64,000 bases of DNA from NCBI RefSeq assembly GCF_008728835.1, contig NZ_CP042582.1, positions 3,499,001 through 3,563,000 of the forward strand, read 5' to 3'. This DNA comes from Hypericibacter adhaerens (GTDB taxonomy: Bacteria; Pseudomonadota; Alphaproteobacteria; Dongiales; Dongiaceae). The notes under the pieces were generated by a model, which searched no databases, had not been told where the DNA came from, and was given only the letters and a program-made list of their open reading frames with translations. This document shows, piece after piece, positions 38,559 to 43,569 of this stretch. How positions within the stretch are numbered: the stretch's first letter is position 1; the number at the start of each line of letters is the position of its first letter. Made by a program: the position numbers and the translations under genes.

Positions 38559-40331
38559 CTACCGCCAGAGCCGCCCTTCCGACCGGCCGTGCGTAAGATA
38601 GTGGAAGTACGGATCGACCTCCGCGTCGAAGAGGCCCGGATTGTTCAGCACATATAATACCGGATCGAAATCCGGCGGCAGCAGGTTGGAATTCCTCGAC
38701 GGCGAGGCTGCGATCGTGGCGCGGATTCGCTCGAACCGGCTCTTGTACGGCTCGATCCCCTTCTCGACCTTCTCCTGCAGGGGAGAGGCGACGAAGAGAT
38801 CGATCGGCGTCGCAAGCGGATCATCCATTCTCACGAGCTGCAGCCGTTGGATCGGCACGCCCCGCCTCAACGCGTAGTTCTCCCGCGCAAGCCGCTCCGG
38901 CACATACTCGTTGGGGCGGAGCGAAATCTCGAGCCAGTCCGAGAACAGCATGCGCTTCGTGACGGGAAAGACATAGGTGGAAACCTCCGGTGTCCGCCGG
39001 AAGTCGATCGAGCCCACCAGATGCCCGTTGGCGAGAACGGCGATATCGGGAGCGGGGCTGCTTCCCCGGTAAACGGAGAAGGACAGCGCAATACGATAAT
39101 CGGTCCGCCGGAGCACCGGCACGATCAGCCGCGCATCCGCGCGATCCGACCAGATGCAGGTCGGTTCCGGCTCCGGCCAGCCCCAACCGACGCCGCCGAT
39201 CTCGTCGACCACCTCGCAGCGCCTGAGATCGTAGAGGGCCTTCGGTACTCCCTGCGGCCGCAGGGGCATCGTGAACGGGCCGACGGCGCGCAGCAGCAGC
39301 ATCTCGAGCGGCCGCGGCCGGCCGACCGCCTCCCACGCCCGGTAGAGGCGCGGAAATTTCAGCAGTTTCCGTTCCATGCGGCTTGGCGGCACCCGGGAGG
39401 CGCGGCGATCGCGAATCCGCTGCAGGAAGCCCGGCCGCGCCGGCCCTCTTCGCGGAGGCGACGCGGCGGCAGAGCCGGCGGCACCCTCATCCAGCGCCTG
39501 CGCGCGAGCCACGCCGGATTCGATCAGAAGGGACCGCAGGCGCCGGAATTCGGGCACGAGCCCCGCATCGGCGATCGCGCGCGCCAGCCGTTCCATGTCG
39601 CAATCGCCGAGCAGCAGGACCGCGTCGAGAATGGTCTGCATCGCATCCGCTCTCGTCCCCTGCCGGAAGCCGTGATCGAGCGCATAGATCAGCGCGATCT
39701 CCGGACTCGGCACAAGGATCTTGCAGCCTTGCACCTCGAAGGTCCGGGCTTCGGCCCAGAGTGCCTGCTCGAGCCTGCGTTGGCCGGCATCGTCCGCGAT
39801 GCGCCAATGAAGATCGAGCTCGGCGGGACCGCGTGTCAGCCCCCAGCTCGCCCGCTTGCACGCGATGCGATGGACCAGGGAATCCCAGGTCATGCCGCGG
39901 CCGGGCGCCCAGCCGTCGGCCCGAAGGCGCCGGCATATGGCCTCGAGATCCTGGAATCGGACATGGATGTCGAAATCGCCCATGCCGCGCCGCGACCAGG
40001 CGCCGTATCTCGCACAGATGGCAAGGCCCTTGATCGCGATCACCGGAAACGAGGCGGCCAGGGTCTCGATATAGGGCAGCAGCTCGCGCGCCAGGATCAT
40101 GTTCTGCGTGAACGTCGCTCGCGCCTTGCCCCGAAACTTGGTCGGAATCTCGATCGGCGGCGTGATCGCGCTGAGCCGCGCGAAGATGGCGGGAACCAGC
40201 CGGGTTTCCGCATAGGGAGCCTGCTCGAGCGAGGTCTGGGCCTGCCAGGTTCGGCAGCTCGCAACCGCAACCGACGGATCGTCGTGCAGTGCCGCCCTGA
40301 GCAGCAGCAGCTCGCGTTCCGTCGCCTGCAT
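38559..40331 (-). CDS. NTP_transf_5-type nucleotidyltransferase with C-terminal extension
   Basis: A 590-residue protein. The N-terminal half has VIAIKGLAICARYGAWSRRG then MGDFDIHV, the KG...R..GD.D pattern of uncharacterised nucleotidyltransferase-fold proteins (PF14907-like). A helical middle follows. The C-terminal region from about 380 is beta-rich. The last 40 residues, with FDPVLYVLNNPGLF and PYFHYLTHGRSEGR, resemble tail repeats found on glycosyltransferases. Last gene of the five-gene operon, abutting GT2 without a gap. In related clusters such a protein accompanies HprK-related and PqqD-like genes. Substrate unknown. Confidence 0.75.
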   Translation of the reverse strand: MQATERELLLLRAALHDDPSVAVASCRTWQAQTSLEQAPYAETRLVPAIFARLSAITPPIEIPTKFRGKARATFTQNMILARELLPYIETLAASFPVIAIKGLAICARYGAWSRRGMGDFDIHVRFQDLEAICRRLRADGWAPGRGMTWDSLVHRIACKRASWGLTRGPAELDLHWRIADDAGQRRLEQALWAEARTFEVQGCKILVPSPEIALIYALDHGFRQGTRADAMQTILDAVLLLGDCDMERLARAIADAGLVPEFRRLRSLLIESGVARAQALDEGAAGSAAASPPRRGPARPGFLQRIRDRRASRVPPSRMERKLLKFPRLYRAWEAVGRPRPLEMLLLRAVGPFTMPLRPQGVPKALYDLRRCEVVDEIGGVGWGWPEPEPTCIWSDRADARLIVPVLRRTDYRIALSFSVYRGSSPAPDIAVLANGHLVGSIDFRRTPEVSTYVFPVTKRMLFSDWLEISLRPNEYVPERLARENYALRRGVPIQRLQLVRMDDPLATPIDLFVASPLQEKVEKGIEPYKSRFERIRATIAASPSRNSNLLPPDFDPVLYVLNNPGLFDAEVDPYFHYLTHGRSEGRLWR

Positions 40332-40991
40332 TCAGCTCTTTCTCGTCCGGTTGTGATGATCCCGGATCACCCGAAGCATGTCGGTCCGCGCGGTTCCCCG
40401 GTCGCGCACCCCCATATTCTCGCCATGAATCCGGCGCCAGAGCACGATCCTGTCGAGGAATCGCGACTGCATGCCGCCGGCCTCCGCCCGGCTGATCCAA
40501 TCGACATTGGCGGCATGAGCGAGATCGGTGCGAAAGGGCCCGACCCGCTCGAACAGGTCGCGCCGGGCCAGCATGGCGGTGATGAGGCGGGACGGGATCG
40601 GCGGCGCGATCGGCCTCAACGCCGAATCGGTATTGACCACCCGACCGAACACCGCCTCCAGCGATGGCGTTGCCTGCAGGGCATCGAACATCGCGCCGAG
40701 CCTGCCCTCGGGCCAGACATCGTCATGATCGAGAAAGCAGAGCAGCGTTCCACGGGCGCGCTCCATCGCCCTGTTCAAGGCCGCAGCGAGCCCAGCCGGC
40801 TCCTGGTGGATGAGGATCGGCGCCATCGGATGGCCGCCGGCGATCGCCGCCGTGCGATCGGTCGATCCGTCATCCACGATCAGCAGCTCGACCTGTGCCG
40901 CCCGCTGAACCGCGACGCTGTCGAGCGCCTCGGCGATATATTGCTCGCCGTTGCGCACGGCCATGATGATGCTGATCGCCGCGCTAGGCAT
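40332..40991 (-). CDS. Glycosyltransferase family 2
   Basis: A 219-residue GT-A enzyme that uses a nucleotide sugar. It shows SIIMAVRNGEQYIAEALDSV at the N-terminus, LIVDDGSTDRTA, and the metal-binding DxD-type CFLDHDDVW. It is short, and ends after RIHGENMGVRD with no membrane segment, so it is probably cytosolic. It overlaps the HprK-related gene by 8 bp and abuts the nucleotidyltransferase gene. Probable role is sugar transfer within the operon's pathway. Confidence 0.88.
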   Translation of the reverse strand: MPSAAISIIMAVRNGEQYIAEALDSVAVQRAAQVELLIVDDGSTDRTAAIAGGHPMAPILIHQEPAGLAAALNRAMERARGTLLCFLDHDDVWPEGRLGAMFDALQATPSLEAVFGRVVNTDSALRPIAPPIPSRLITAMLARRDLFERVGPFRTDLAHAANVDWISRAEAGGMQSRFLDRIVLWRRIHGENMGVRDRGTARTDMLRVIRDHHNRTRKS

Positions 40992-42018
40992 GGATGCGCT
41001 CCAGCACCGATGCCACGGTGTCGGGCACCGAAGCGATCTCGCTGCCGAGATCGATATGGTAGACGGGCGCCGACGCGGCCAGCGCCATCAGGAGGCGCGG
41101 CGTCGCCGCGGTTCCACCCATCAGACCGCCGATCGTGCTCGGCAGGATCGCATGGAGCGCGTCGCGGCTCGATCCCTTCCGGAGCGTGGTCCGCGCGGCG
41201 CCCGTGACCCTTGGCAGCAGGATCGCCGCGACCTCGGCGGAGGGCGTCAAAGGCAGCCGCGACGGATCGAGGAACATGACGCCCTTTTCCTGCTCGACGC
41301 GATCCGCATTCGCCAGCCAGGGGCGGACCGCCGGCAGCATATCGAGCGACGACCGCAGCAGCTTCGCGCTTTGATAGAGCATATGGACTTTTCGGGCGGC
41401 AGGTTCGATGACGCAGTAATCGTCGCCGAGATAGCTCATGCCCGACAGCGCGCAGGCCAGAGCCGTGGTCGACTTGCCGGCACCGCCGCCGCCCGCGATG
41501 AGCGCGGCCCGCCCATCGACCGCCACGGCGGCGGCATGGACGATCTGCTGCCCATGCCGGTTGGCGAACCAGGAGAGCGGGATGCGGAAAGGCGAGGCTT
41601 GTGCCCAGGCGGGCAGCGCCGCCAGTTCCGGATACCAAAGATAGCCTGCGTTGTTCGCCGCGTGATGAACGGTCAGGGAACTGGTATGGATGTCGAACGC
41701 ACAGCGCACCGCCTCGTCGCAAAAGCCCTCGATCAGCCCCAGGGGCTCATGTGCCATCGGCCCCCAGGGCCTTGCCGGCGGCGCCGTCTCCGCCGCGATG
41801 CCGTCCCAGACTTGAAGCCTGTAGCCAGATGCCGCGATCGAATCCGTCTCGGCGGGAAGGAAGGCGCTGCCGATCCAGCGACCGCCGGCATCGGCCGGCG
41901 CGGTCAGGCGGAATGTCAGGCTGCCGATGCGATAGCTGTCCGACCGGATTTTCCGCTGCCCCAGCGCCGCCTCGCACCGAACGGCAACCGCCTCGGCGAA
42001 GGCGAGCGAGGCATTCAT
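40984..42018 (-). CDS. HprK-related kinase (HPr-rel-A type)
   Basis: A 344-residue protein whose C-terminal half carries an HPr kinase-like P-loop, IAGGGGAGKSTTALACALSG (about 158-178), followed by YLGDDYCVIE, the D-D pair of HprK. No PTS HPr gene or HprK N-terminal domain is present. The N-terminal half is unlike HprK. The start MNASLAF (42018) overlaps the PqqD-like stop (ATGA). The pairing with a PqqD-like gene and a nucleotidyltransferase matches the arrangement called HPr-rel-A. The phosphorylation target is unknown. Confidence 0.78.
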   Translation of the reverse strand: MNASLAFAEAVAVRCEAALGQRKIRSDSYRIGSLTFRLTAPADAGGRWIGSAFLPAETDSIAASGYRLQVWDGIAAETAPPARPWGPMAHEPLGLIEGFCDEAVRCAFDIHTSSLTVHHAANNAGYLWYPELAALPAWAQASPFRIPLSWFANRHGQQIVHAAAVAVDGRAALIAGGGGAGKSTTALACALSGMSYLGDDYCVIEPAARKVHMLYQSAKLLRSSLDMLPAVRPWLANADRVEQEKGVMFLDPSRLPLTPSAEVAAILLPRVTGAARTTLRKGSSRDALHAILPSTIGGLMGGTAATPRLLMALAASAPVYHIDLGSEIASVPDTVASVLERIHA

Positions 42019-42446
42019 AGCTTGGCGGTGGGAGCCGCGTGCGGCCAGCCGGTCTCGTCGACATCGTGAATGGGATCCAGCTTGATGAGATCCCACATGT
42101 CCGTGTACTCGTCGAAGCCGGGTGCCTGCCAGCGCCGCTCCTCCGCCTCGGGCAGCACCAGGATGGCGGACGAAAGCCCATCGCCGGCCGGCTGGATGAT
42201 GTCGGCAGCGATCAGCGACTGGATGCAGCGCTCGACATCGCCTCTGATCTCGGGGGCCGAGAGCCCGTATTGGCGCGACAGCAGATCGATCAGTTGATCG
42301 AGAGAAGCACCGGCGGCCAGCAGCGTCCACAGGTCGGCGGCGCTGCCCGATCCGGAATAGTAGGCGCCCTTCTCGAGATTGATGATGATGACCTCGTCCC
42401 CCAGCCGCTCATGCGAAACACGGTTGGGAGGGATTCGATAGAACAT
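42015..42446 (-). CDS. PqqD family protein
   Basis: A 143-residue protein. Residues about 1-85 match PqqD-like RiPP-recognition folds: VSHERLGDEVIIINLEKGAYY and SGSAADLW, then the helical LDQLIDLLSRQYG. A C-terminal extension with an acidic DEYTDMWDLIKLDPIHD follows. PqqD proteins usually present a peptide to a modifying enzyme. No radical SAM enzyme or obvious precursor peptide lies nearby. ATG 42446 lies within the end of the GT4 gene (38-bp overlap). Confidence 0.8.
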   Translation of the reverse strand: MFYRIPPNRVSHERLGDEVIIINLEKGAYYSGSGSAADLWTLLAAGASLDQLIDLLSRQYGLSAPEIRGDVERCIQSLIAADIIQPAGDGLSSAILVLPEAEERRWQAPGFDEYTDMWDLIKLDPIHDVDETGWPHAAPTAKL

Positions 42447-43569
42447 GGTTGCTGGGTTCCTGATCGATGGATGAACGCGACTGTGACCGATAGAACGCGA
42501 GGTACCGCGCGGCGCAGGGAGCGACACCATATTCCTTCATCGCCCGGAGTCTCGCGCAATGTCCCAGCCGCGATCGGCTTCCCTCATCTTCGAGCATTCT
42601 GCTGATGGCCGCGCCGAGCTCGATCGGGTCGTCCGGTGAAACGACAATTCCCGTTTCGCCATCCAGGACCGTTTCCGGGAGCCCGCCGACACGCGCCACG
42701 ATCGCCGTGACGCCCGCCATCGCCGCCTCCGCGGCGACCAGGCTGAATCCTTCCCGGGTCCGAGAGGGAACAAGCACGAGATGAGCCTGGCCAACCAGGC
42801 GCCGCGTCGCGCGATTGTCGAGCCTGCCGAGAAAATGGACAAAATTTAACAATCCAAGCTCGCCGCTCAGCCGCGCGAACGCCTGGCGCTCTTCGCCTTC
42901 GCCGACGATCGTCAGCACCGCGTCGATGCCGCGGGCGCGCACCTCCGCCAAGGCCCGGATGGCCAGATCGAAACCCTTTTCCCGCTGCAGCCGGCCGACG
43001 CAGAGGAGCCTGAAGGGCGCGCCGTCGATGCGCTCGGCCGGCACCTCTTCGATCCCGTTCGGGATGACGCCCCAGTTCTTTTCCGATGCCGAGAACTCGA
43101 CGGCGGAACGCAGCGCCGCTTCCGAGACCGCCGAGATCGCGTCGGCCCGCTGCAGGAGACCCCGGATGACGGGCATCCGGTCAGTCGGCTCCAGCACGCC
43201 ATGCTGGGTCACCAGGAACCGCCCCCTGAAACGCGACGATTTCAGCAACCGGTCCACGTACCAGGCGCTGGGCCCGGTGACGCAGTGCATGTGCAGGATG
43301 TCGGGCGACTCTTCGTCCAGAAGCTGCTGCAATTGCCCGAGGATCTTGAGCGGCTCGCCGGGGCGGCCGGACCGGATCGCGTTGGTGAAGCCCAGCCGGT
43401 GGACCGGGGTCCCTTCGATGACTTCCCGCGGCGGCAGGCGCCCCATGTCATCGGTCACCACCGAGATGTCGATACCCTGCTCCCGCAATGGCTTTGCCAG
43501 CGAGTTGATCAGGATCTCGATGCCGCCCAGAACCGGGAGAAACCAAGGCGTGAACGCGAATACCTTCAT
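42409..43569 (-). CDS. Glycosyltransferase family 4
   Basis: A 386-residue GT-B enzyme. It has FTPWFLPVLGGIEILINSLA at the N-terminus, GVIPNGIEE, LLCVGRLQREKGFDLAIRAL and the donor-site E-x7-E region SRTREGFSLVAAEA. ATG 43569 (MKVFAFTPWF) is the family-like start. First gene of the five-gene operon, with a good promoter about 60 bp upstream. The 38-bp overlap with the PqqD-like gene indicates coupling. The sugar and acceptor are unknown. Confidence 0.9.
   Translation of the reverse strand: MKVFAFTPWFLPVLGGIEILINSLAKPLREQGIDISVVTDDMGRLPPREVIEGTPVHRLGFTNAIRSGRPGEPLKILGQLQQLLDEESPDILHMHCVTGPSAWYVDRLLKSSRFRGRFLVTQHGVLEPTDRMPVIRGLLQRADAISAVSEAALRSAVEFSASEKNWGVIPNGIEEVPAERIDGAPFRLLCVGRLQREKGFDLAIRALAEVRARGIDAVLTIVGEGEERQAFARLSGELGLLNFVHFLGRLDNRATRRLVGQAHLVLVPSRTREGFSLVAAEAAMAGVTAIVARVGGLPETVLDGETGIVVSPDDPIELGAAISRMLEDEGSRSRLGHCARLRAMKEYGVAPCAARYLAFYRSQSRSSIDQEPSNHVLSNPSQPCFA

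Follow-up and report, generated by a model that had tools for sequence, protein, structure and literature searches.

A PqqD-like protein with a conserved C-terminal tail in Hypericibacter adhaerens: a possible RiPP-like phosphoglycosylation system with a built-in precursor

The operon and the tail of its PqqD-like protein

The DNA analysed here is a stretch of 64,000 nucleotides from Hypericibacter adhaerens (contig NZ_CP042582.1, positions 3,499,001 to 3,563,000), referred to below as the window, and our subject is an operon in it in which a PqqD-like protein with a conserved C-terminal tail is encoded beside an HprK-like kinase (Table 1). Five minus-strand genes span positions 38559-43569 in the order GT4, PqqD, HprK-like kinase, GT2 and NTP_transf_5; the first two overlap by 38 bases, PqqD and the kinase by 4, the kinase and GT2 by 8, and GT2 abuts NTP_transf_5. 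An original prediction, made from the letters alone, had placed these genes at the same positions and in the same order. It had also spoken of a trio fused to two glycosyltransferases, but the genes are adjacent here; HprK-GT2 fusions were found in six open reading frames (ORFs), none of them in the window operon. Four of the five operon proteins (GT4, PqqD, GT2 and NTP_transf_5) passed the Pfam cut-offs. Neither a lasso cyclase (asparagine synthetase-like) nor a B2 leader peptidase (Transglut_core3) was found by Pfam among the five genes, and no NCBIfam model scored above its cut-off for the window PqqD or the window kinase. An anti-phage defence system was rejected, as none of the five proteins matched the PADLOC models at E<=0.001.

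Table 1. Features of the operon (window positions).
Feature	Coordinates	Strand	Remarks
GT4-family glycosyltransferase, 386 aa, first gene	42409..43569	-	PF00534 4e-36; PF13579 6e-21; same place in G012
PqqD-like RRE protein with conserved C-terminal tail, 143 aa	42015..42446	-	PF05402 4e-12
PqqD tail, residues 106-135, WQAPGFDEYTDMWDLIKLDPIHDVDETGWP	42042..42131	-	leader-like WxxPxF part followed by DPIHDVDETGWP part
HprK-like kinase, 344 aa	40984..42018	-	57-row family profile finds HprK 1jb1 at 4e-7
Short GT2-family glycosyltransferase, 219 aa	40332..40991	-	PF00535 1e-25
NTP_transf_5 nucleotidyltransferase, 590 aa	38559..40331	-	PF14907 1e-28; K-G / D.D / D-H intact

The PqqD protein is the sole PqqD-domain match of the whole genome (E<=0.01), NTP_transf_5 has one match, and an ordinary HprK/HPr/PtsI locus is present elsewhere. 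A genome of the same family (G012, whose contig is that of locus L045) displays the identical five-gene order, with a kinase identity of 49%, which makes the operon more than a chance arrangement. The operon is accessory: G001, the only further genome of the genus to be searched, lacks it and has there, flanked by the same pair of glutathione S-transferase genes, two other genes (approximately 2.2 kb) that by sequence resemble an aldo-keto reductase and a short-chain dehydrogenase. The third-position GC content of all five genes is 0.80-0.82, and the two lowest values among the genes called in the window are found in the operon, which suits a horizontally gained block.

The window PqqD consists of a RiPP recognition element (RRE; RiPP, ribosomally synthesized and post-translationally modified peptide) at approximately residues 1-85, a variable linker and then the tail, the most informative feature of the operon, which was absent from the original prediction. 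Tail-less PqqDs in the called set were 84-99 amino acids (aa) long, with one of 141 aa. A scan of genome contigs confirmed 203 relatives, of which the best 80 were retained; many of these lie on contigs of metagenome-assembled genomes. According to the record titles, from which all phylum names are taken, the 80 include Alphaproteobacteria, Deltaproteobacteria, Chloroflexi, Cyanobacteria, Nitrospirae, Bacteroidetes, Ignavibacteria, Acidobacteria, Actinobacteria, Planctomycetes, Chlamydiae, Bacillota and others.

As the scan itself fixed nine tail columns, the conservation of the tail was assessed with these columns set apart. The pattern [LA]DP[VI]H[DE]V[DES]E was matched by all 81 aligned sequences, 77 of them matching only that one of the two patterns used; the invariance of D124, P125, H127, V129 and E131 (81/81) is no evidence, because the pattern forced it. 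Among the unselected columns W134 was found in 81/81 sequences, G133 and P135 in 80, P109 in 79, D116 in 77 and M117 in 76, and most of the 81 tails open with [FYW]xxP. The mean information over the 81 rows was 3.27 bits per column in the tail, while the RRE reached 2.10 and the linker 0.83; with the nine scan-selected columns removed, the tail still held 2.93. A further 27 tails were fetched by the kinase search or by a tail profile, and 22 of them fit neither scan pattern; among these the His was kept in 18, the Val in 16 and the GW pair in 18. The tail matched no Pfam family and no PDB chain (E<=1), and a search of 44 tails against NCBIfam yielded one match only, to a lasso model (E 0.13).

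No stand-alone tail ORF was seen among 62 tail matches in 50 system-carrying genomes; all lay in frames of at least 144 aa, except one cut by a contig end. In three phylum samples, tail-positive genomes numbered 6/398 in Pseudomonadota, 16/244 in Cyanobacteria and 7/301 in Chloroflexota, and the tail occurred only in frames of at least 146 aa, barring one doubtful cyanobacterial 27-aa frame with a stop (G758). The PqqD protein itself was read in the 80 loci, in the six Pseudomonadota matches and in other fetched stretches, and not behind every tail match of the 50 genomes, the Cyanobacteria and the Chloroflexota. When 932 small ORFs (18-110 aa) from the gaps near the 80 loci were compared all against all, no widely common family that could represent a separate precursor emerged. 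The best families united just three close Oscillatoria loci; beyond these, no short conserved ORF of the kind that the original prediction had proposed to look for near the PqqD gene was seen. No candidate acceptor gene was found near the 80 loci either.

An AlphaFold2 model of the window PqqD, built with 80 sequences, had a mean predicted local distance difference test (pLDDT) score of 88. Residues 101-120 were modelled with confidence (pLDDT 91 and 81) and include a strand (112-114); a helix follows at 117-121, and over residues 121-140 the scores were low (58 and 60). The best Foldseek matches of this model were lasso RREs solved with their leader: TbiB1 5v1v (E 8e-6, TMt 0.91), 5v1u and 6jx3 (E 9e-3). 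Together with the PF05402 match, this agrees with what is expected of the RRE of an RRE-dependent RiPP system. YxxP is described as the recognition motif of the lasso-type RRE (PMC12710340). A docked leader-like part followed by a free second part would be the expected look of a built-in precursor.

The kinase group and its gene neighbourhoods

The window kinase scored below the cut-off of Hpr_kinase_C (18.2 vs 33.3), and the profile of its own family (Table 1) found HprK structures, in alignments that match up the P-loop and the D-D pair, as had been proposed from the letters. This P-loop and DD core is common to the HPr kinase/phosphorylase of the phosphotransferase system, from which the operon kinase differs in its context. 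Since a separate ordinary HprK/HPr/PtsI locus exists, HPr does not depend on the operon kinase, which judging from gene content is unlikely to act as an HPr kinase/phosphorylase; the original prediction had named the opposite case, an ordinary HprK acting on HPr, as one that would count against it.

The prediction had also called the operon HPr-rel-A-like, and membership of HPr-rel-A was rejected for the kinase and for the PqqD. Against TIGR04352 (HPr-rel-A) the window kinase scored 43.9 bits, where the cut-off is 200 and four control kinases (L037, L040, L221 and L222) scored 229-291. The window PqqD had no match to TIGR04353 (PqqD_rel_X) at E<=0.01; 9/80 of its relatives did match (best E 8e-6), and of the controls L037 and L040 passed (57 and 58 bits vs 35) and L222 fell just short (33.5).

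In a maximum-likelihood tree of 65 kinases, 49 tailed-PqqD rows fell on one side of a branch with support 97/96, and the four control kinases were positioned outside this group. The rows comprised the window, chosen loci, 30 random draws, four picocyanobacterial kinases and 14 outside rows, plus L108_3891, a further row labelled tailed which belongs to a second, short-PqqD system in locus L108.

The kinase and the tail also occurred in the same genomes. In 398 Pseudomonadota genomes, with the kinase and tail runs taken as one draw, 130/398 matched the kinase model at E<=1e-8, and six had strong, near full-length matches (E<=3.6e-45; the next was 2.2e-25). Tail matches were found in exactly these six genomes, which are not independent, because three belong to one genus. 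A first, kinase-led search had matched 29/96 genomes, and 11 stretches, from as many other genomes, were read. In five of them (G002, G004, G008, G010 and G012) the kinase was located beside a GT2 gene; all five were tailed, four with the main tail type and one with the minor type described below.

Gene neighbourhoods were examined in the 80 loci with gene calls from a codon-usage script and with hidden Markov models for the five families, which were built up from the window proteins by iteration over these same 80 loci; four seeds each went into the B2 and asparagine synthetase models, and seven loci had under 4 kb of downstream sequence. An HprK-like gene was found within eight genes of the tailed PqqD in 69/80 loci, and directly downstream of it in 57/80. 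GT2 genes were near 74/80, in 1-6 copies, with none in six; NTP_transf_5 was near 57/80 and GT4 near 31/80. Sulfotransferase and GT-D genes also occur around tailed loci. ATP-binding cassette (ABC) proteins of more than 450 aa matching a four-seed model were encoded in 21/80 loci; of three that were checked, those of L049 and L061 contain ABC_membrane and ABC_tran, that of L048 contains ABC_tran only, and no C39 peptidase was present in any of the three. A lasso B2-like peptidase was found in 1/80 loci (L108, beside the second, short-PqqD system), in a search covering peptidases of the B2 and C39 types, and an asparagine synthetase-like protein in 1/80 (L066).

With duplicates removed, a GT2 gene lay within eight genes of all 94 kinases of tailed PqqDs and of only 2 of the 17 other kinases. 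Of these two, the L108 kinase adjoins a tailed system, and the L181 kinase is near a tail match whose gene the caller missed. The 94 comprise 89 kinases nearest to a tailed PqqD, one fused to it and four picocyanobacterial ones beside it (L175, L176, L178 and L179), which match the PqqD model themselves and were counted as tailed by virtue of the adjacent tailed PqqD; three duplicate records were removed and the second system of L108 was set apart. Had the trio proved to occur mostly without glycosyltransferases, the earlier proposal would have suffered; the counts went the other way. A tailed-PqqD system, as defined here, has the tail, a kinase of this group and a GT2 gene nearby, and the window contains all three.

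Kinases outside the group were found in different company. Those of L214-L217 and L219 are encoded with a tail-less PqqD and a Transglut_core3-like protein (Pfam checked in L214). In the HPr-rel-A loci L037 (8537-11358), L040 (8367-10903) and L222 (5571-8455) the kinase and NTP_transf_5 are accompanied by a short PqqD and a small protein with a signal-like N-terminus, which in L222 had no Pfam match. The kinases of L041-L043 sit with an asparagine synthetase-like protein, which in L043 scored 149 bits against a lasso cyclase model of NCBIfam (cut-off 525). The out-group kinases thus pair with tail-less PqqDs, several of them with a peptidase or a small protein besides, so that by gene content a tail on the one hand and a separate precursor or peptidase on the other seem to exclude each other.

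Possible functions of the tail

The explanation that we favour, with a probability of roughly 0.4, is that the operon encodes a self-contained RiPP-like phosphoglycosylation system, whose precursor is the C-terminal tail of the PqqD-like RRE itself. The leader-like stretch [FYW]xxPxL..[YF].DM would fold back onto the RRE; the second stretch, DP[IV]H[DE]VDExGWP in most sequences, would stay exposed and be presented to the enzymes. The HprK-like kinase would phosphorylate the presented protein, and the NTP_transf_5 enzyme might then attach to the phosphate a first sugar (or a sugar phosphate or nucleotide), in the manner of PsmN on pseudomycoidin. The glycan could be extended by short GT2 enzymes, one to six in number, a role that in the window would fall to one GT2 and a GT4; the ABC protein encoded nearby in about a quarter of the loci is exporter-like. 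As the system has no B2-type peptidase of its own, the product may remain attached, the uncleaved RRE protein perhaps serving as a glycan carrier. We infer the role of the tail as acceptor, the order of these steps, the lack of cleavage and the nature of the product. The peptide-linked phosphorylation and glycosylation pathway suggested in the original prediction is thus retained in conditional form, with a kinase that is not taken for an HPr kinase, and its placing in HPr-rel-A is given up.

Several observations weigh against the tail being a substrate. None of its Ser, Thr or Tyr residues is invariant: the position preceding the D-M pair is T/S in 64/80 tails, acidic in 10/80 and another in 6/80, and no S/T follows the DP in 17/80. 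In the 22 tails outside the scan patterns E131 was kept in just 11. The minor tail type (L036, L151, L152 and L153) has the same leader-like first half, followed by DPP... in place of DP[IV]H[DE]V, with no His or Trp at the usual places; these are the four of the 22 that lack the His. Picocyanobacterial tails are without the xxP and have DA in place of DM. Conservation as strict as this is, moreover, seldom expected in a natural-product core. Some other molecule could be the substrate of the kinase, and 11/80 loci were without a separately called kinase nearby. Eight of these 11 genomes hold a strong kinase match (E<=5e-91); that of L073 is part of the locus itself, as a fusion with GT2, and others lie elsewhere in their genomes. 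The remaining three have no strong match.

A serious rival, and nearly as likely, is that the tail is an unmodified, conserved short linear motif, folded on the RRE, through which the kinase, the nucleotidyltransferase (NTase) or the GT2 enzymes are recruited or activated, the substrate being an unlinked peptide, lipid or glycan. Its main strength is that the tail offers no invariant phospho-acceptor. Conservation across phyla suits a protein-protein interface, and in the minor tail type only the leader-like part and the DP are preserved. The picocyanobacterial kinases (L175, L176, L178 and L179), in addition, have a weakly matching second PqqD-like domain at their C-terminus (18-29 bits), and contact between RRE and kinase may therefore matter in itself. 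Against this explanation stand the lack of any candidate acceptor gene in the search near the 80 loci and the W/F/YxxP at the start of the tail, a substrate feature in RRE systems.

It is improbable that the system is a variant of the phosphoglycosylated lasso peptides or of HPr-rel-A, with its precursor, peptidase and cyclase elsewhere in the genome. With the phosphoglycosylated lasso peptides (pseudomycoidin, with PsmK and PsmN, and paeninodin, with PadeK) it has in common a lasso-type RRE fold, the closest to that of the window PqqD, an HprK-family kinase and a nucleotidyltransferase. The PqqD model of Bacillus lasso systems was matched by 77/80 PqqDs (best E 3e-19), the window protein scoring 29.1 bits vs a cut-off of 80. 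In pseudomycoidin, PsmK is reported to phosphorylate a C-terminal Ser, and PsmN to place one or two hexoses on the phosphate (PMC8498205, PMC9266682); nucleotidylation followed by the action of a host glycosyltransferase is left as a possibility in the latter source. The tailed system, however, brings neither a lasso cyclase nor a B2 peptidase with it, no separate precursor was found for it, and it adds GT2 arrays and the conserved tail of the RRE; with no cyclase and no B2 peptidase among the operon genes, membership in the lasso peptide clusters was rejected. Across the 80 loci the B2-like peptidase and the asparagine synthetase-like protein were seen once each, the kinase group is apart from the lasso-like and HPr-rel-A kinases, and the tails themselves touched a lasso model only in the single NCBIfam match given above. 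HPr-rel-A (TIGR04352/TIGR04353) has in common the trio of PqqD, HprK-related kinase and NTP_transf_5; its four control kinases, unlike those of the tailed system, had no GT2 within eight genes, and three of the four control loci have a tail-less PqqD of 90-103 aa and a separate small protein.

That the genes form an ordinary surface-polysaccharide cluster, with PqqD and HprK as incidental neighbours, is very unlikely: GT4, GT2, sulfotransferase, GT-D and ABC genes around tailed loci and a modelled beta-sandwich, perhaps malectin/CBM-like, in the window NTase speak for it, but it is already contradicted by the occurrence of tail and strong kinase matches in the same six genomes, by the constancy of the PqqD-HprK-GT2 core under many phylum names, by the position of HprK directly downstream of PqqD and by the HprK-GT2 fusions.

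The reading of the tail as a built-in precursor can be carried further, to a proposal that we consider possible but doubtful. The operon would then encode the first RRE with a built-in substrate, the tail being docked, phosphorylated by the HprK-like kinase and elongated by the NTase and GT2 enzymes into a phosphodiester-linked glycan that is never cleaved, on a carrier or an exported glycoprotein, in many phyla including small-genome cyanobacteria. If true, a compact gene set would provide a testable route to protein-linked phosphoglycans, and some uncharacterised HprK-like, NTP_transf_5 and over-long PqqD proteins would gain a role. RRE pathways are commonly sought via a separate precursor near the RRE, and a widespread system whose tail, borne by the RRE, is the sole candidate peptide seen so far would therefore be missed. 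In a 2025 survey, 21% of PF05402 proteins are reported to exceed the size of a discrete RRE without another Pfam domain (PMC12710340).

Related systems and variants

The RRE, kinase and NTase modules are known, and it is the tailed architecture and its wide spread that are apparently undescribed. No published description of such a system was found in open-licence PubMed Central, where an absence carries little weight, and no paper was found there for the tail motif strings. Among known systems, the SynChlorMet cassette, a radical-SAM cassette, includes an HprK-related ScmC and a PqqD-related ScmD which resemble the operon pair. ScmD was matched by 45/80 PqqDs (best E 8e-9), and the window kinase scored 18.6 bits against ScmC (cut-off 125). 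One sub-cut-off radical-SAM match (L058) was found among the 10 neighbour proteins checked, and no systematic search for this family was made. Fusions of RREs to PF00535 glycosyltransferases were flagged through RRE-Finder as possible new RiPP contexts (PMC7470986; PMC12710340); these are fused proteins, whereas the tailed RRE is discrete and is encoded with a kinase and NTP_transf_5. In borosins a C-terminal core peptide is borne by a pathway protein (PMC7878506); there the core is fused to a methyltransferase, and in the tailed system the bearer of the peptide is an RRE, whose partners are a kinase and glycosyltransferases.

Variants of the tailed system itself were also seen. In L104 (7980-10382) a natural fusion joins three PqqD units to an HprK-like kinase, the first tail being full and the later ones degenerate. 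In the small-genome cyanobacteria of L175, L176, L178 and L179 a tailed PqqD variant, DAQELLLADPIHE[VI]KEETGW, is encoded beside an HprK-like kinase of approximately 500 aa. In four loci of Chloroflexi type (L048, L092, L099 and L109) the tailed PqqD lies beside ABC genes and the kinase is elsewhere in the genome; in L048, L092 and L109 genes named by sequence as acyl-ligase-like adjoin it as well.

The out-group loci with a Transglut_core3-like protein (L214 6196-7864, L215-L217 and L219) come from alphaproteobacterial genomes. Their set of tail-less PqqD, Transglut_core3-like protein, HprK-like kinase and NTP_transf_5, alongside which no GT2 or asparagine synthetase-like gene was noticed, is possibly a peptide system of its own.

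The K-G / D.D / D-H residues of the window NTase, present as the original prediction had read them in its KG...GD.D pattern, are in a protein that is larger than its catalytic domain. The AlphaFold2 model of this protein shows an NTase domain at approximately 1-280, a weakly modelled beta-sandwich at approximately 400-500 and a helical C-terminus. Foldseek matched it to NTases of the MenT/ANT/LnuA type at 1e-4 and weaker and to malectin at 9e-3, with CBM35 also among the weaker matches; the malectin and CBM35 matches probably belong to the beta-sandwich. The extension (window 38559-39134) thus combines this low-confidence, possibly malectin/CBM-like beta-sandwich with a C-terminal FDPVLYVLNNPG...HYLTHGRSEGR stretch, which we take to be of a type found in polysaccharide glycosyltransferases. 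NTP_transf_5 copies in which the K-G/D.D/D-H residues are absent were seen in L067, L075, L077, L095, L105, L180 and other loci, often beside an intact copy.

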